NCBI RefSeq assembly: GCF_001975225.1
Contig: NZ_CP019445.1
Location: 2,728,001 to 2,792,000, forward strand
Direction: 5' to 3'
DNA: 64,000 nt
From: Kosakonia cowanii JCM 10956 = DSM 18146
GTDB taxonomy: Bacteria > Pseudomonadota > Gammaproteobacteria > Enterobacterales > Enterobacteriaceae
Below are positions 16,883 to 24,120 of the stretch, piece by piece. Each line of letters starts with the position of its first letter. Positions within the stretch are counted from its first letter, which is position 1. A model generated the notes under the pieces. It had not been told where the DNA came from. It saw nothing but the letters and a program-made list of their open reading frames with translations, and ran no database searches. The position numbers and the translations under genes are program-made.

Positions 16883-17956
16883 ATGGATAAAAAGCTCAAA
16901 ATCAGCGAAATTGCCCGGCGCACAAATCTGTCGACCAGCACCGTTTCGCGGGTGCTGGCGGGAAAAGCCAACACCAGCGAAAAAGCGCGCGCGGCGGTGC
17001 TGGCCTGCGCCCGTGAACTGGGGGTGATGGAGGGGATTGCCGCCGGACGGCTGCTGCTCAATAACCTGATTGTCTTTGCGCCGCAGCGCGCCTTTGATGA
17101 GCGCTCCGATATCTTCTACTACCGTGTCATTCAGAGCATCAATAAGGCACTGGAGCCTCACGACGTGCGGCTGCGCTACTGCGCGCTGGAGGAGCTGGAC
17201 AGCGATGCCAATGAATTTCTGGCGCGTATGAATGCAGCCGAAACCCAGGCGGCGATCCTGCTCGGCATTGACGATACCCATATTCACGAGCTGGCGGCGG
17301 ATATCGGCAAACCCTGCGTGCTGATCAACTGCCGCGATGGGCGTATGCGCCTGCCCTCGATTGCGCCGGATCACCGCACCATCGGCGAGTTTGCTGCCCG
17401 CTATCTCTTTGATATGGGCCACCGCGATGTGGTGAATGTGATGTGCCTGCGCCGTTACACCATGGATCTGCGCCTCGCAGGCATTAAAGCAGCGTGGCAG
17501 CAGCAGAACCTGCGTTTTAACAGCAAACGGGATCTCATCACCGTACCCAGCTTTAGCGCCAAAGAGGCGGCGCTGCGGGTGGCGGAGTGGCTGGACGATC
17601 CGGCAAACAAAACGCCGCCGACCGCATTTCTGGTCAGCGGCGATTTTATGGCGCAGGGGACGGTGCAGGCGCTGCTGCAGCGGGGTTTGCGCGTGCCGCA
17701 GGATGTGTCGGTGATGAGTATTGACGCCTTTAACCTCGCGGCAATTCAGGATGTGCCGCTCACCGCGGTGCATGTTCCGCGCGATGAGCTGGGCGCGGAA
17801 GCGGTGCAGCTATTGCAGCAGCGCCTGATCCGCCCACAGGCACCGACCGGCTCGCTGCTGTTAAACGGCACGCTGGCAGTGCGCGAGTCGGTGCGGCGGA
17901 TACGCCCGGGGCAGCGACGCACCGCCGTGGCTGGTGACGGGCTGTATGATGCTTAA
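16883..17956 (+). CDS. LacI-family transcriptional regulator
   Basis: The protein has 357 residues. The N-terminal headpiece KISEIARRTNLSTSTVSRVLAG is a textbook LacI helix-turn-helix with hinge (1-60), followed by a periplasmic-binding-protein-like sugar domain ending near residue 340. It is divergent from the MFS-GH31 operon and probably represses it until the cognate sugar binds. GGAG lies about 14 bases before the ATG. The gene ends tail to tail with ybiU, the stop codons overlapping by 4 bases. Confidence 0.88.
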   Translation: MDKKLKISEIARRTNLSTSTVSRVLAGKANTSEKARAAVLACARELGVMEGIAAGRLLLNNLIVFAPQRAFDERSDIFYYRVIQSINKALEPHDVRLRYCALEELDSDANEFLARMNAAETQAAILLGIDDTHIHELAADIGKPCVLINCRDGRMRLPSIAPDHRTIGEFAARYLFDMGHRDVVNVMCLRRYTMDLRLAGIKAAWQQQNLRFNSKRDLITVPSFSAKEAALRVAEWLDDPANKTPPTAFLVSGDFMAQGTVQALLQRGLRVPQDVSVMSIDAFNLAAIQDVPLTAVHVPRDELGAEAVQLLQQRLIRPQAPTGSLLLNGTLAVRESVRRIRPGQRRTAVAGDGLYDA

Positions 17957-19212
17957 CTCTCCATCCCCAGCGCGCGCTTACCGTGCGCATTCAGATCGCT
18001 GAGCGTAAAGCGGCCTGACCAGTCGCGCTCATAATCCTCGCGCGGAAAATCCCCGGGCGAGCTGCCTTGCTCCAGTGCGACCTTCACCGTGCGGGCATAA
18101 GCCAGGTTCTTCTCACACAGCGGGGCAGCGGGGATATACATCACATTGCCCCAGCCCTGCTGGTTTTCCACCGGGGCGACTGAGTGGATCACATCGCAGT
18201 GCCACCAGACGGAATCGCCCGCTTCAAGGGGAGGAATGCTGCTCAGCGCTTCCATCAGCAGCGGGTGCCACTTCTCTGAAACCGGCAGCACGCGGCCAGG
18301 TGCCACGCCGCACAGCTCATCGTCCGGGATATCATCCAGCAGCGGGCGCAGCAGAATGTAGGCCATCGCCTCGGGGATCGGCACCACGTGCAGCAACCCC
18401 TGACCAGCGATCATATCCGACAGCGCCGTCCAGCCCTGGAAGGTGCGAAACACTGAACATTTGGTGGTGTTCTCAACCGAGTACTCCTCCACCTCGGTGC
18501 GGTGCGCCGCATCCCATGGATCATATTGATCCAGTTTGCCGTTAAAGACGTTGGCAAAGACGCGCTGATAGGCCGGCAGCAGCCAGCGCTCCAGCGCGCC
18601 GGAATCCGTATGCGCCCCCAGCCCTTTCGAGGTGGTGCCCGGCGGGCGGCGGCGAATGCGATCCGGGTAGATGACGCTAACATCGGGGTTAAACCACGTG
18701 CGCCCCTCGCTCTCAAACCGCCACAGCCGGTTGAGGAAAGATTGCGCGGCCGCCATTTCATCGCTCTGGCGCGCCTGCATCTGCGCCTGTGACCAGTAGA
18801 TCGGGTAGATCTCCGGGCGCGAAGCCTCCAGCGTGCCGAAAAAGCTGTCGCCCGGGCCTTTATAGACCTCATCAAAATGGTTTTCCGCCAGGTAGTCGAG
18901 CATCGCGCGATCCCAGCCCAGCGCCTGCTCGCGCGGGAAATGGCCTTTAATCACCACGCAGCCGCGACGTTTGATCAACGCGCGCTGTGCCTCGGTCACG
19001 CGTCCGTTGGCGAGATCGGCATAGTTAAGCTGCGGCCAGACAGATTCGCCGCGGGCTTTTATCGCCTTAATCTCCTCCACGCGCTCACTAATACGCGCGC
19101 TGAGTTGATCGAACAGCTGTTGTACATCGCCAATTTGCGCCCGCAGCGCCTGTTTCATCTGGCGGATGGCGGTTTTGTGGTCGGCAGGAAGGGTTTCATG
19201 GGTAAACGTCAT
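17953..19212 (-). CDS. ybiU: DUF1479 protein YbiU (Fe(II)/2-oxoglutarate oxygenase-like)
   Basis: The ATG at 19212 follows AGAGGT at good spacing and gives 419 residues (E. coli 421). It is a cytoplasmic protein of the DUF1479 family. The pair HTDSG (near residue 201) and HCDVIHSV (near 338-343) looks like the metal-binding His-X-Asp...His of double-stranded beta-helix oxygenases, but activity is not established. Its substrate is unknown. The gene is read alone, with a 14-bp palindromic box just upstream that also occurs before ybiV and ybiY. Confidence 0.93.
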   Translation of the reverse strand: MTFTHETLPADHKTAIRQMKQALRAQIGDVQQLFDQLSARISERVEEIKAIKARGESVWPQLNYADLANGRVTEAQRALIKRRGCVVIKGHFPREQALGWDRAMLDYLAENHFDEVYKGPGDSFFGTLEASRPEIYPIYWSQAQMQARQSDEMAAAQSFLNRLWRFESEGRTWFNPDVSVIYPDRIRRRPPGTTSKGLGAHTDSGALERWLLPAYQRVFANVFNGKLDQYDPWDAAHRTEVEEYSVENTTKCSVFRTFQGWTALSDMIAGQGLLHVVPIPEAMAYILLRPLLDDIPDDELCGVAPGRVLPVSEKWHPLLMEALSSIPPLEAGDSVWWHCDVIHSVAPVENQQGWGNVMYIPAAPLCEKNLAYARTVKVALEQGSSPGDFPREDYERDWSGRFTLSDLNAHGKRALGMES

Positions 19213-19225
19213 AGGCACCTCTTTC

Positions 19226-19239
19226 TTTCATTCGAAAGT
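19226..19239 (-). promoter_or_regulatory. Shared 14-bp palindromic box upstream of ybiU
   Basis: TTTCATTCGAAAGT, extended to CTTTCATTCGAAAG at 19225-19238 with CTTTC/GAAAG arms. It lies 13 bp upstream of the ybiU start, close to its ribosome site. The same 14-mer occurs upstream of ybiV and of ybiY. Confidence 0.65.
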
Positions 19240-19363
19240 AATTAAGATTACAAATGACAATCTAAGTTAAAAATAAGTTAATGCAAGTTTAAAAACTTGA
19301 TGGATTGCACAAAGCGGGAGAAGGCCGAGGGAGAGTGCCGACGGCGGGGCGTCGGCAGGGGGA

Positions 19364-20179
19364 TCAGCGGTCGAACGGGGCAGTGTTATCCAGCACCGCC
19401 TGAATCACATTCAGCACGCCGTGGTGGTTGTTGTCATCGGTCTGGTGACGAGCAATGGCTTTAATCGCGTCGGTGGCGTTGCCCATGGCGAAAGAGTAGT
19501 CGGTCATGCGCAGCATTTCGGCGTCGTTTCCGCTATCGCCCAGCGTCACACACGCTTGCGGGGAGAGGTTCCAGCGCTTGAGCAGACGCGAAATACCGTT
19601 GGCTTTATGCAGGCCGGGGATAATCAGATCGACAAAGCCGAAGCCGCTGGTTACCGGTTTCATAATCCCGTCGAGCGAGGTGTGCAGTTCATCAACCAGC
19701 GCCGGGATCTCGCTGTCCGGCAGATTCAGGGAGAATTTAAACAGCGTATCGTCAATCTGCGTGAAGTCGCGCACCGGCTTTAAGCGGTGATAGTGTTCCG
19801 CCATCAGATCGACAAACTCTTGCGGCGCGGCTTCGTTGATATAGGCGCTTTCAAGCCCGCAGGCGACAAAGTTCAGGCCGCCGCCTTTTAACAGCTCGCC
19901 CATCACCACCTGGGATTCGTGGCGGGTCAGTTCGCCGTGGAACAGTTGTTGGCCGTGTTCGTAGACCAGCGCGCCGTTTTCGGCGACGAAGGAGATGCGA
20001 TCCTTAAGCTCCGGGAAGAAGGAGATGAGCTGGTAGTACTGGTTGCCGCTGGCAACCACGAATTCGATATTGCGCTGCTGGAGTTGCTCGAATTGCGCCA
20101 TAAACCGCGTGCGATCGTACTTTTTGGCGTCATCAAGGAAAGTTCCGTCCATATCAGTGACGATAACTTTGACGGTCAT
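19364..20179 (-). CDS. ybiV: HAD-superfamily (Cof-type) sugar phosphatase YbiV
   Basis: The protein has 271 residues, as in E. coli. The HAD motifs are in place: DMDGT with Asp9 and Asp11, VASGNQ, and the acidic motif [11 protein letters not shown] near residue 220, with a type IIB cap between. YbiV-type enzymes dephosphorylate sugar phosphates in the cytoplasm. AGGAG lies 9 bases before the ATG. A CRP-like site and the shared 14-bp box lie 50-85 bp upstream, followed directly by an ERIC element. Confidence 0.95.
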
Positions 20180-20227
20180 ATATAGCGCTCCTGAATGTCA
20201 TAACGAGGAGCAACATTCTAGAGAGAA

Positions 20228-20243
20228 TGTGATGAGTTACACA
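20228..20243 (-). promoter_or_regulatory. Candidate CRP site upstream of ybiV
   Basis: TGTGA-N6-ACACA matches nine of ten core CRP bases. It lies about 50-65 bp upstream of the ybiV start and 8 bp from the shared 14-bp box. Confidence 0.5.
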
Positions 20244-20250
20244 AATTTTA

Positions 20251-20264
20251 TTTCATTCGAAAGT
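20251..20264 (-). promoter_or_regulatory. Shared 14-bp palindromic box upstream of ybiV
   Basis: TTTCATTCGAAAGT, identical to the boxes before ybiU and ybiY. It abuts the end of ERIC copy 2, which starts with the last base of the box. Confidence 0.65.
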
Positions 20265-20390
20265 TTAACCGTCCTCTTTCGAGCCGCAGGTGTGTTGGCG
20301 GCGATGGCTTACCCCGGTCATTTACTTTTTGTAAACTCCCGGGGATGCGCCACCTTGCCGCCTTCCTGCGATTCGAAATACCTGGTTAAA
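20264..20390 (+). repeat. ERIC element, copy 2
   Basis: 127-bp imperfect palindrome with termini TTTAACC and GGTTAAA and the ERIC core CCCCGGTCATTTAC...GTAAACTCCCGGGG. It is about three-quarters identical to copy 1. It lies between the 3' end of ybiW and the ybiV regulatory sites. Confidence 0.9.
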
Positions 20391-20414
20391 GCGGAATGGT
20401 TTCTAACCTTAACA

Positions 20415-22847
20415 TCACAACGTATGTTCGGTGCGGGCAATAATATCGTCCTGCGCATCCGGCGACAGGGCGGTGAAAAACGCTGAATACCCGGCGACGC
20501 GCACTACCAAATCACGATATTGATCCGGGTGCTGCTTCGCGGCGAGCAGCGTCTCGCGCGAGACAATGTTGTACTGAATATGCCAGCCTTTATGCACCTC
20601 AAAAAAGGTGCGCAGCAGCGCCATCAGCTTCTGCCGGTCGCCGTCATTTTCAAGCGTCGAGGGGTTGAGCTTCTGGTTAAGCAGCACGCCGCCGAGGATC
20701 GCGCCAACCGGCAGTTTGCCCACTGAGTTTATCACCGCCGTCGGCCCAAGATGGTCGGTGCCGGAGGCCGGGCTTGCCCCCTCTGCCAGCGGCGTATGGG
20801 CTTTGCGCCCGTCCGGCGTGGCCATGGTTGCCGCGCCAAACGGCACGTTGGCGGAGATCGACGAGGTACCGGCGTAGTATTTGCCGCCAATCGGCCCACG
20901 CCCGTAACGCGGGTTGCGATACTGCTTTAGCTCGTCGATATAGGTCTGATACGCGCGCACCAGCAGGGCATCGACGTTCTCATCATCATTGCCATACTTC
21001 GGCGCGCTGTTGATAAGCCGCTGGCGTAGTTGTTCGTGGCTCAGGCCGTCGAAATCTGCCGCCAGCGCCTCGGCCAGCTGCTGCTGGCCGATAAGGCACT
21101 GCTCAAGCACTAACTTTTTCACCGCCGCGAGGCTGTTACCAAGATTGGCGATGCCCACCTGCAGGCCGGAGACCCAGTCATACTTCGCGCCGCCCTGTTT
21201 GATGCTCTTCGCCCGCTCAATGCAGTCGTCGACCAGCGCCGAGCAGAGAATATCCGGCACGTTCTCCTCAAGCATAGTGTCGACAACATACTCAATCTCG
21301 ATTGATTTGCGCGTGTAGTAGCGGATCTGCCGGTCCCATGCTTCTATCACCTCATCAAAATGGCGGAAGTTGCCTGCCGACAGCGCCTCTTTTTGCGCCA
21401 GGAAAACCTCGCCGCTGGTGGCGTCACGCCCGCCCTCCAGCGCCGCCAGCATCACGCGGGCGAAGTTGATAAAGCTCATGCCGGTGCAGCGGTAACCCCA
21501 TTTACCGCCGACGGCGGTTTCGATACAGCCAATCGCCGCGTAGTCGTAAGCATCGGCAGGCTCCACGCCCAGCGCGATAAAGGCCGGAATGACAATCTCA
21601 TCGTTATTAAACGCCGGCATGCCAAACCCGCAGCGGATCACCTGCACGCAGGCGTCGAGAAAATCGTCACTCATTCCGGCGTGATAGCGCACGCTGAGGT
21701 TGGGCTGGGTGGAGCGCAACCGCCCGCAGGATTCGAGGATGGCGTAAGAGAGCGGGTTAACCGCGTCATGGATCTGGCCGTTGTGCCACATTTGCCCGCC
21801 GATGGTGACATTCTGGTAGAGCGGGCTGCCCGCCGAGGCTTTCGAGTGGCTGCCGGAGCGGATTTTGTTCACCTCCAGCAGCTTCAGCCAGCAGCTCTGC
21901 AACAGCTCAATACCCTGCTCGCGGTGTAGCGTCTGTTGCAGCTCGACATCGCGACGCCAGAAGGGGTAGAGATACTGATCCATTCGACCAAACGACACGG
22001 AATGGCCGTTGGATTCAATCTGCAACAGTAGCTGGATAAAGTAGCAGAGTTGCAGCGCCTGCCAGAAGGTGCGCGGCGGCTGGTGGGCAATAAGCTCACA
22101 GTTCTCGGCGATAGCCAACAGTTCGTCGCGGCGGCTTTCGCGCGACTCGTCAGCCGCCATGGTGCGCGCAAGGTCGGCAAAACGCACAATATGCAGGCTG
22201 ACGGCCTCAAGCACGATATCAATCGCTTTCAGGAACTGCTCGCCGTGCAGATCGTCAAGCTGCGTCAAATCAATCCGCGTGCGGCGCTCGCGCACCTGCT
22301 CACGCAGGCCATCCAGCCCTTTTGCCAGCAGCAGCGGGAAGTTCACCGCCAGGTGCGCATCGCCGGAGGTCATATTGCCTTCGGCTTTGATAATGCCGCT
22401 CGCAAGCAGCGCTTTTTGTTCGTCGGTAAACATGCCGTAGCAGCGATCCTGCACCGTCTGGCCGCGCCACCACGGGCAGACTTCATGCAGAACGCGCTTA
22501 TTCGCTTGGCTGACCGCAAAGCCCGCACCGGGGCGATCTGCCAGCTCATCAATCTCTTTCTCAATCCAGGAAACGGTGTACTCGGGGAAGATCGGCGCGG
22601 CGCGTACTTCGCTTGCCTGGTTGCCGATAATCAACTCGTCATGTTTGATCCAGATTGTGCGCTGCGCCAGGTGATGGGCTAATGCCAGCGCGCGGCGCAC
22701 TGGCAGCGGCTTATCCATATGCTGCTGGTAAATCTGCGTATAGTGCAGCGCACGTTCGGTGCAGATCGGCGGTTTTACAACCGAGATCAGCGCCTGTTTA
22801 TGCGCGCGGATGCGTTCAGGCAGCGTGTTGAGTTGCATCAGAGTCAT
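20415..22847 (-). CDS. ybiW: Glycyl radical enzyme YbiW
   Basis: The start MTLMQLNTL (22847), behind GAGGAT, gives 810 residues, as in E. coli. The C-terminal glycyl radical site is RVAGYSAFF, and the thiyl cysteine lies in AAIGCIETAVGGKWG. A single Cys followed by Ile-Glu is the pattern of the dehydratase/eliminase class, whereas pyruvate formate-lyase has two adjacent cysteines, so the common name formate acetyltransferase is doubtful. The reaction is unknown. It is oxygen-sensitive by family and needs the YbiY activase, encoded 4 bp upstream. Confidence 0.93.
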   Translation of the reverse strand: MTLMQLNTLPERIRAHKQALISVVKPPICTERALHYTQIYQQHMDKPLPVRRALALAHHLAQRTIWIKHDELIIGNQASEVRAAPIFPEYTVSWIEKEIDELADRPGAGFAVSQANKRVLHEVCPWWRGQTVQDRCYGMFTDEQKALLASGIIKAEGNMTSGDAHLAVNFPLLLAKGLDGLREQVRERRTRIDLTQLDDLHGEQFLKAIDIVLEAVSLHIVRFADLARTMAADESRESRRDELLAIAENCELIAHQPPRTFWQALQLCYFIQLLLQIESNGHSVSFGRMDQYLYPFWRRDVELQQTLHREQGIELLQSCWLKLLEVNKIRSGSHSKASAGSPLYQNVTIGGQMWHNGQIHDAVNPLSYAILESCGRLRSTQPNLSVRYHAGMSDDFLDACVQVIRCGFGMPAFNNDEIVIPAFIALGVEPADAYDYAAIGCIETAVGGKWGYRCTGMSFINFARVMLAALEGGRDATSGEVFLAQKEALSAGNFRHFDEVIEAWDRQIRYYTRKSIEIEYVVDTMLEENVPDILCSALVDDCIERAKSIKQGGAKYDWVSGLQVGIANLGNSLAAVKKLVLEQCLIGQQQLAEALAADFDGLSHEQLRQRLINSAPKYGNDDENVDALLVRAYQTYIDELKQYRNPRYGRGPIGGKYYAGTSSISANVPFGAATMATPDGRKAHTPLAEGASPASGTDHLGPTAVINSVGKLPVGAILGGVLLNQKLNPSTLENDGDRQKLMALLRTFFEVHKGWHIQYNIVSRETLLAAKQHPDQYRDLVVRVAGYSAFFTALSPDAQDDIIARTEHTL

Positions 22848-22851
22848 AATC

Positions 22852-23751
22852 TTATCCTCGCAGTGTCGTCGCCAGCCCTTTCTGGCGGGCAAATGCCGCG
22901 GCGAATGCCAGCAGTTCAGGGTCGTCGAGCGGTTTTTCAGGGGCGGTATAGGGTTCGCCGAGCAGGTCAAACTTCTGCATGCCTAGCGTGTGATAGGGCA
23001 GAAAGTGGATCTCGCCGACGCGCAGCTGGTCGGCGGCAAAGTTGGTAATCGCTTCAATGGAGGCTTTATCGGCGTTAAAGCCGGGGATCAGCGGCACGCG
23101 AATAATCATCTTTTTCCCGGCGCGGGCGAGGCGTTGCAGATTATCGAGCACGCGCGCGGCAGAGCCGTTCGTCCAGGCACGAAAGGCATTCTCATCGACA
23201 TGTTTAAGATCGGCGAGAAAGAGATCTACCCACGGCAGCGAGGGTTCGATATAACGCCACGGCACATGCAGGCAGGTCTCAACGGCGGTATGGATGCCGT
23301 GCTGATGGCTCTCGCGCAGCAGTGCTTCTGAAAGTTCGGGGTGCATAAAGGGCTCGCCGCCGGAGAGCGTCACGCCGCCGCCGCTGCGATCGTAAAAGGG
23401 TTTGTCGCGCAGCAAAGTCGCCATCATCTCCGCCACGGATTTCTCTTCGCCACAGATACTCAGCGCTTCGGTCGGGCAGCAGCCGATGAGGGCATCCAGC
23501 GCTGCATCGGTGATCTTTTCACGCTGGATCAAGAGATGATTTTGCGCGCGTTGAATTACCGCAGGCGCAGCGCGTTGGCACAAATCGCAGCCGGTAAGGC
23601 AGAGGCGCGGGTCAAACAGCAGGTCGCGCGAGCGGGTACGGCTTTCCGGGTTCTGGCACCAGCGGCAGCGCAGCGGGCACCCTTTCAGAAACACCACCGT
23701 GCGAATGCCGGGGCCGTCATGGGTTGAGTAGCGCTGAATATTAAAAATCAT
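22852..23751 (-). CDS. ybiY: Glycyl radical enzyme activase YbiY (radical SAM)
   Basis: The start [15 protein letters not shown] (23751), 7 bases after GGAG, gives 299 residues. The radical SAM cluster motif is Cys-x3-Cys-x2-Cys in [15 protein letters not shown]. An inserted ferredoxin-like part has further cysteines (CLTGCDLC and GCCPTEAL), as in activases of non-PFL glycyl radical enzymes. It should use S-adenosylmethionine to abstract hydrogen from the YbiW glycine. It is the first gene of a two-gene operon with ybiW. The shared 14-bp box lies about 35 bp upstream. Confidence 0.94.
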
Positions 23752-23786
23752 CGACCATCTCCACATATTTCATATGGAGATTAAAT

Positions 23787-23804
23787 AACTTTCGAATGAA
23801 AGTT
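23787..23804 (-). promoter_or_regulatory. Shared palindromic box upstream of ybiY-ybiW (best copy)
   Basis: AACTTTCGAATGAAAGTT has 7-bp arms AACTTTC and GAAAGTT around GAAT. Read on the minus strand it contains the same TTTCATTCGAAAGT 14-mer as the boxes before ybiU and ybiV. Confidence 0.7.
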
Positions 23805-23850
23805 GCTGTGATGGGGTTCGCGGTTTACGCCTTGTGCCTGACAGGGAGAT

Positions 23851-24120
23851 TGCCGGGTGGCGCTGCGCTTACCCGGCCTACAAAACCGCCGCCATCCGGC
23901 AAAAAGAAGCCCGCAAACCCGTAGGCCTGATAAGGCGTTACGCCGCCATCCGGCAAAAAGAGGCCCGCAAACCCGTAGGCCGGATAAGGCATTTATGCCG
24001 CCATCCGGCAAAAAGATGTCCGCAATTCCGTAGGCCGGATAAGGCGTTTACGCTGGCATCCGGCAAAAAGAGGTCCGCAAACCCGTCGGCCGGATAAGGC
24101 GTTTACGCCGCCATCCGGCA
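23851..24120. repeat. Tandem REP array between ybiY and moeB
   Basis: One REP in one orientation (23851-23881, with the variant GCCGGGTGGC/ACCCGGC arms) and a half unit are followed by four REPs all in the same direction (from 23921, 23975, 24030 and 24085; period 54-55 bp) joined by CAAAAAGAGGCCCGCAAACCC-like linkers. In E. coli fsaA lies at this place; no such gene is present here. Confidence 0.9.

Follow-up and report, generated by a model that had tools for sequence, protein, structure and literature searches.

Identical palindromic boxes upstream of ybiU, ybiV and ybiYW in Kosakonia cowanii as the most likely operators of the DeoR-family regulator YciT

Three identical 14-bp boxes located upstream of ybiU, ybiV and ybiYW in Kosakonia cowanii JCM 10956 are most likely bound by YciT, a regulator of the DeoR family whose regulon is already known in Escherichia coli; as a whole, they very probably constitute the YciT operators of one anhydrosugar-phosphate regulon, to which FNR would add anaerobic activation in relatives. 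The window, i.e., the entire analysed stretch of 64,000 nucleotides (contig NZ_CP019445.1, positions 2,728,001 to 2,792,000), contains TTTCATTCGAAAGT at 19226-19239 (plus strand), 20251-20264 (plus strand), and 23788-23801 (minus strand). The same three copies are the only ones in the whole genome (4,857,324 bases), in which the reversed control pattern has no match, the expectation for an exact 14-mer on both strands being, at the base composition of the window, 0.00018 per 64 kb and 0.014 per genome. All the positions listed in the initial annotation of this DNA, upstream of three units on one strand, were recovered, and the chance figure of 0.0005 given there is of the same order as the computed one. 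At up to three mismatches the window yields 5 matches versus 4.08 expected, and therefore only the exact copies carry meaning in it. In the whole genome at up to two mismatches, exact copies included, 9 forward and 8 reverse matches compare with 11 and 12 for the reversed control; as a set, the two-mismatch matches are not informative, and the one at yjfP alone is backed by conservation.

Each box precedes a minus-strand gene (ATG of ybiU at 19212, of ybiV at 20179, and of ybiYW at 23751), and the copies differ in the length of their dyad arms. The ybiYW copy has, as the initial annotation had noted, 7-bp arms (AACTTTC/GAAAGTT) and spans 23787-23804 on the minus strand in its 18-bp form AACTTTC-ATTC-GAAAGTT, the ybiU copy has arms of 5 bp (CTTTC/GAAAG; dyad CTTTC-ATTC-GAAAG at 19225-19238, 13 bp upstream of the ybiU ATG), and the ybiV copy of just 4 bp.

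All four genes of the cluster lie on the minus strand: ybiU (17953-19212), coding for a DUF1479/Gig2-like protein (Pfam PF07350; 84% identity to E. coli YbiU), ybiV (19364-20179) for a HAD-family phosphatase (77%), ybiW (20415-22847) for a glycyl radical enzyme (88%), and ybiY (22852-23751) for a radical SAM protein activating glycyl radical enzymes (74%). fsaA is absent between ybiY and moeB, and the sole FsaA-like frame found in the genome, 70% identical, lies near a metF-like frame, named from its letters. Tandem REP-like units were seen by eye at 23850-24120, between ybiY and moeB, where many relatives carry fsaA. The relatives of YbiU in the PDB are 2dbi (YbiU itself), 2csg (a putative cytoplasmic protein), 4rgk (a DUF1479 protein), and 6akz (Gig2). 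Residues H200, D202, H315, H337, and H342, numbered along the aligned window segment, are invariant across 40 aligned YbiU orthologues and would be compatible with an HxD...H iron site. By blastn, some similarity to the ybiU-ybiV stretch turns up in 5375 of 5426 E. coli genomes, and in 229 of them it reaches 80% cover; the boxes were checked in MG1655 only. In the literature search no paper was found that links Gig2, oxygenase, and Candida albicans, and the available text of a paper on PdhR lists ybiU merely as a neighbour gene (PMC7660256).

The identification of the regulator draws on published work on E. coli and on genome comparisons. In E. coli K-12, 49 YciT sites with a palindromic motif were located by ChIP-exo, with peaks upstream of ybiUVWY and fsaA, and deletion of yciT changed the expression of ybiV, ybiY, and fsaA (PMC8464067, main text). 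The discussion of that paper already proposes ybiU, ybiV, ybiW, ybiY, and fsaA as one uncharacterised pathway, and the growth effect it reports for the yciT deletion is an osmotic one. According to the text of a 2025 preprint (PMC12132413), a DNA pull-down with the E. coli ybiYW promoter, for which the cells were grown aerobically, enriched YciT near -5 of the predicted start; the promoter is active without oxygen, and an unnamed activator acts around -20 of the computed start. Both the binding of YciT and the change in expression are thus documented in E. coli. The regulon described in the initial annotation as unknown had therefore been mapped to YciT by ChIP-exo (PMC8464067) and by DNA pull-down (PMC12132413), while its proposal of a single regulon joining ybiU, ybiV, and ybiYW agrees with the E. 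coli sites (PMC8464067) and with the conservation of the boxes in relatives, and its DeoR-family candidate with the family of YciT.

The K. cowanii orthologue of YciT is encoded outside the window (G000:C1:3673159-3673896; 79% identity over residues 1-247, E 2.4e-123), between pdeR and yciH and with rnb and pyrF around, the same as in E. coli. SEVTIRQDLNTLEK, taken as the recognition helix, is identical in the two proteins; the curated NCBIfam YciT model, applied to the E. coli protein only, gave 488 bits at a cut-off of 450. In E. coli MG1655 the exact 14-mer is present in the ybiY-fsaA gap, and the 12-bp core TTTCATTCGAAA upstream of ybiU and ybiV, with the final two bases changed. The match of the box to the published YciT motif, whose letters are given in a figure (PMC8464067), rests on location and palindromy. 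Of the other named ChIP-exo targets, which also include ykfC, ycaP, ydbD, and yfdQ, three were scanned: ybiO is preceded by CTTTC-GGGT-GAAAG with perfect arms (3 mismatches relative to the 14-mer, a match equalled by 22 of 1000 shuffles) and cusF by a weak dyad only (154 of 1000), and upstream of ompX there is no box (5 mismatches; 955 of 1000).

The conservation of the box was followed across 198 sampled genomes from the family, among which many are smaller than 2.5 Mb. YciT (E<=1e-40) is encoded in 83 of them and the exact box found in 51, of which 48 are among the 83, i.e., the box is present in 48 of 83 genomes with YciT and in 3 of 115 without it (odds ratio 51; the genomes are related and p values inflated); the reversed control pattern was matched in 2 of 198. 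The remaining 35 YciT genomes have no exact box, many of them carrying a form with one or two mismatches. When the 84 exact matches were assigned by reading, 69 proved to belong to ybi, fsaA or yciT loci and 6 to yjfP; the other 9 lie elsewhere, two each in G011 and G152 and one each in G039, G044, G072, G086, and G109. In G086, a genome with no YciT match, the exact box (L103, position 7716) stands beside a non-YciT DeoR-like gene and transporter-like frames.

Absence of the box upstream of the orthologues in close relatives would, according to the initial annotation, have refuted its claim; at up to two mismatches it is present before 63 of 69 ybiY, 32 of 35 ybiV, and 41 of 43 ybiU orthologues (permuted boxes average 0.15, 0.05, and 0.10, respectively), and before 56 of 60 fsaA genes, mostly in the divergent gap shared with ybiY; the permuted averages across all upstream sets range from 0.04 to 0.15 per set. 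The sets comprised 200-250 bp before orthologues at least 50% identical with the start reached, from the fetched neighbourhoods and E. coli. That of ybiY drew on the 69 genomes with a YbiY match at E<=1e-80, of which G148, with a truncated YbiY, was dropped, and that of ybiV covered the genes inside the fetched stretches only. From the ybiU set G122 and G027 (at least 65%) were left out, although in G122 an exact copy precedes ybiU by 40 bp, as well as matches of ca. 50%, probably a second DUF1479 protein. The six ybiY upstream regions with no box at up to two mismatches are those of G032, G184, G057, G087, G176, and G040; in the last two the box is in the fsaA-yciT gap rather than before ybiY. 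A covariation of box letter 5 (A/T) with the YciT subtype was considered, the T form appearing by eye in several genomes with a YciT of 57-61%, and rejected: G002, G062, and G070 do not conform to it, and in G031, G146, and G171 the A form accompanies a 57-60% YciT. Three genomes (G017, G163, and G186) encode two YciT proteins each, one 72-80% identical to that of E. coli and one 57-59%, the latter beside ybiYW with the box variant TTTCTTTCGAAAGT.

The gene order provides a further link between the box and yciT. In 22 loci yciT lies directly after ybiYW, 21 of them with the box and representing 15 genera by genus labels, and in 8 loci directly after ybiU, 6 with the box (exact in G031, G171, and G146, with two mismatches in G075, G196, and G106); the other two, G020 and G068, have no box within two mismatches. 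In G040, G176, and G145 the box is situated between fsaA and yciT. Since yciT is found in box-led operons, it travels with the box, even though the box (up to two mismatches, within 200 bp) directly precedes yciT in only 2 of 45 loci; in most box-bearing operons it lies one or two genes upstream. Six of the eight ybiU-yciT genomes, all except G075 and G196, have no YbiY match at E<=1e-60, so YbiU can remain with yciT without the glycyl radical enzyme. In G146 (L088, 5092-12425) the order is ybiV, box, and ybiU-yciT, directly followed by a LacI-type gene and by PTS-permease-like and glycosidase-like frames, named from their letters, which makes a link to a transporter possible.

A further target is likely yjfP, a carboxylesterase gene situated between bsmA and ulaR in E. 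coli. Of 96 yjfP loci examined, 37 carry a core box at a distance of 77-127 bp from the gene (permuted boxes average 0.2); over the loci as a whole, mismatch counts are either 0-2 or at least 4. The loci come from 95 of 100 matched genomes and E. coli, and the stretch of G050 ended at a contig end. YciT is present in 36 of the 37 box loci, 42 YciT genomes have no yjfP box, and neither do 17 of the 18 YciT-less genomes. The K. cowanii copy, with two mismatches, lies at G000:C1:700403-700416 and that of E. coli at L295:3333. Neither yjfP nor FNR is mentioned in the main text of PMC8464067, whose supplements may list either of them or the motif letters.

Other readers of the box have been weighed against YciT. 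The LacI-family protein encoded next to ybiU (16883-17956), put forward in the initial annotation, is very unlikely to be one: its gene adjoins ybiU in many relatives too, but the E. coli locus lacks it, ybiT following ybiU directly, and nevertheless keeps the box cores. Moreover, a LacI homologue (E<=1e-90) is present in 37 of the 51 exact-box genomes and missing from 14, compared with 48 of 51 for YciT (E<=1e-40; the two thresholds are not equivalent), the gene was not seen beside the fetched box-led ybiYW-yciT operons, and in the window and in G144 (L102) it is divergent from an MFS-GH31 pair, a likelier target. Slightly less improbable, and still very unlikely, is the use of the boxes by another DeoR paralogue, e.g., UlaR, AgaR or SrlR, instead of or alongside YciT. 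Profile searches place DeoR paralogues close to YciT, and the yjfP box is near ulaR; however, the in vivo binding data name YciT (PMC8464067 and PMC12132413), the gene neighbourhood favours yciT, and just 3 of the 51 exact-box genomes are without YciT, one of them, G086, having the box beside a different DeoR-like gene. UlaR itself is an unlikely reader of the yjfP box, as no second copy of the core within two mismatches occurs in the 7.5 kb that separate yjfC and ulaA in E. coli, these genes included. That the box is a conserved repeat or RNA element with no regulator at all is the least probable of these readings: it is near-palindromic and abuts the ribosome-binding site in the ybiU leader, but the ybiV copy is oriented differently in E. 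coli and in the window, with differences among relatives as well, the spacing from box to start codon is not the same at all genes, and the exact matches are concentrated, 69 of 84, at the ybi, fsaA or yciT loci, the rest being the six at yjfP and the nine elsewhere.

With YciT as the preferred reader, the ybiY promoter offers the clearest view of how the box might work. The consensus of the box-aligned ybiY loci is gTTGAt..acaTCAAtataACTTTCaTTCGAAAGTaaTTTAAT, and an FNR-type dyad TTGAT-N4-ATCAA occurs in them at a fixed offset of -19 relative to the centre of the box, with a mean score of 8.65/10 versus a background of 2.62 (sd 0.83) and a score of at least 8 in 59 of 63 box-bearing loci. In the window this site, GCGAACCCCATCAC (23808-23821, minus strand), is eroded to 6/10, most relatives having 8/10 to 10/10 there; the window ybiY promoter does not qualify as FNR-activated by this score, and the site of G193, a genome of the same genus, has 7/10. 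A putative -10 element of the ybiYW promoter, TTTAAT (23780-23785, minus strand), is conserved in the consensus of the relatives; a scan for sigma-70 consensus promoters returned none at any of the three boxes, this TTTAAT included. If TTTAAT is the -10, the FNR-type dyad is centred at -41.5 and the box occupies roughly the positions from -30 to -15. At class II FNR-dependent promoters FNR is centred at -41.5. Because the box lies between the FNR-type site and the -10, bound YciT should exclude RNA polymerase. The unnamed ybiYW activator of PMC12132413 would then be FNR, which would explain the anaerobic activity of the promoter; the YciT-to-activator spacing is ca. 19 bp here and 15 in the text of the preprint, and the start differs by about 17 bp. 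During growth of two enterobacterial pathogens in the piglet gut, FsaA (163-fold) and YbiW were more abundant, according to the available texts of PMC3686733 and PMC3136414. The literature search, confined to main texts, found no report of FNR control over ybiYW or fsaA, nor of ybiY and FNR together. In K. cowanii the anaerobic branch may be weakened, with the ybiY FNR site degraded and fsaA gone from the locus. The ybiY leader RNA can form a hairpin (23757-23781, minus strand; -12.6 kcal/mol, z -2.7) covering the likely ribosome-binding site; by eye, it is similar to that in G193 and missing from most relatives.

The other two promoters are arranged differently. A CRP-like dyad, TGTGATGAGTTACACA, lies at 20228-20243 between the ybiV box and ybiV, where the initial annotation had placed it, and is conserved in relatives: a TGTGA-N6-TCACA-like dyad with a score of at least 8 is found in 17 of 32 loci at +20 and in 13 of 32 at +21 from the box centre. 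In our reading it would overlap the likely -35 and spacer, where activation by CRP would be unusual. The ybiV box itself lies just upstream of the likely -35 region, from where it could act with either sign. In alignments, by eye, the ybiU box is downstream of a putative TTGCAT/TATATT-type promoter and adjoins the ribosome-binding site, a position suggesting regulation of the repressor or roadblock type. The ybiU promoter (19240-19300) also contains, by eye, TTAACTT-type repeats ca. 11 bp apart, conserved across genera; we take them to resemble the direct-repeat sites of OmpR-type regulators.

The glycyl radical enzyme called uncharacterised in the initial annotation has an activity: YbiW is stated in a review to cleave 1,5-anhydroglucitol-6-phosphate to 1-deoxyfructose-6-phosphate, the finding being credited to Ma et al. 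(PMC12441222, available text). No paper using the term anhydroglycolysis was found in the literature search. The later steps of the pathway of Ma et al. reportedly involve the FsaA/FsaB aldolase and GldA. In the proposed mechanism YciT, encoded outside the window, would read the dyad CTTTC-N4-GAAAG, probably as an oligomer, and would switch ybiU, ybiV, ybiYW, and, where present, fsaA as one anhydrosugar-phosphate regulon, presumably by repression. In relatives with an intact FNR site the ybiY promoter would fire only if FNR is active, in the absence of oxygen, and a ligand has released YciT. This ligand would most likely be one of the sugar phosphates in the pathway, for instance 1,5-anhydroglucitol-6-phosphate or 1-deoxyfructose-6-phosphate. 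A more far-reaching scheme is tentative and rather doubtful as yet: YciT as the central control of an anhydrosugar-phosphate pathway with two branches sorted by oxygen, with YbiU as the oxygen-using branch and YjfP as a member. YbiYW and FsaA, gated by FNR plus YciT, would work without oxygen, YbiU (DUF1479, with an invariant HTD and a distal His) could use oxygen on that same substrate, with or without its phosphate, YbiV would clear the phosphate ester, the esterase YjfP would be a further member, and the ybiU-yciT lineages without ybiYW would use the aerobic branch alone.

By these results an anonymous repeat becomes a named operator, and the YciT regulon gains a precise, conserved sequence. 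The box and its conservation are observed here; what is added to the regulon, as predictions from sequence, is the sequence of the operator and its distribution, the arrangement of FNR-type site and box at ybiY, yjfP as a target, and the lineages with ybiU-yciT. Should these extensions prove correct, anhydrosugar phosphates would be the physiological ligand class of YciT, the ybiYW activator reported without a name in 2025 (PMC12132413, preprint text) would be FNR, and a substrate class open to testing would be available for the orphan YbiU. This ligand class would be of broader interest, since neutropenia in two inherited diseases is traced to 1,5-anhydroglucitol-6-phosphate as a toxic metabolite in the text of PMC12441222.

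Compared with known systems, the arrangement in the window is closest to the E. coli YciT regulon, with an orthologous regulator, the same target genes, a palindromic motif, and the box core at the same three promoters. The two differ in that the exact 14-mer precedes all three units in the window and, in E. coli, ybiY only, and in that the window locus has no fsaA and a degraded FNR site at ybiY. The likeness to the YbiW/PflD anhydrosugar-phosphate pathway (PMC12441222, available text) lies in YbiW, 88% identical to that of E. coli, with YbiY beside it; the review text deals neither with regulation nor with what YbiU and YbiV do, and the only FsaA-like frame found in the K. cowanii genome, 70% identical, is away from the locus. 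The ybiY promoters of relatives resemble class II FNR promoters in having TTGAT-N4-ATCAA centred 41.5 bp before the expected start and a TTTAAT -10, but differ from them in that the operator of a sugar-type regulator fills the region from -30 to -15, and in the window the FNR site has been lost.
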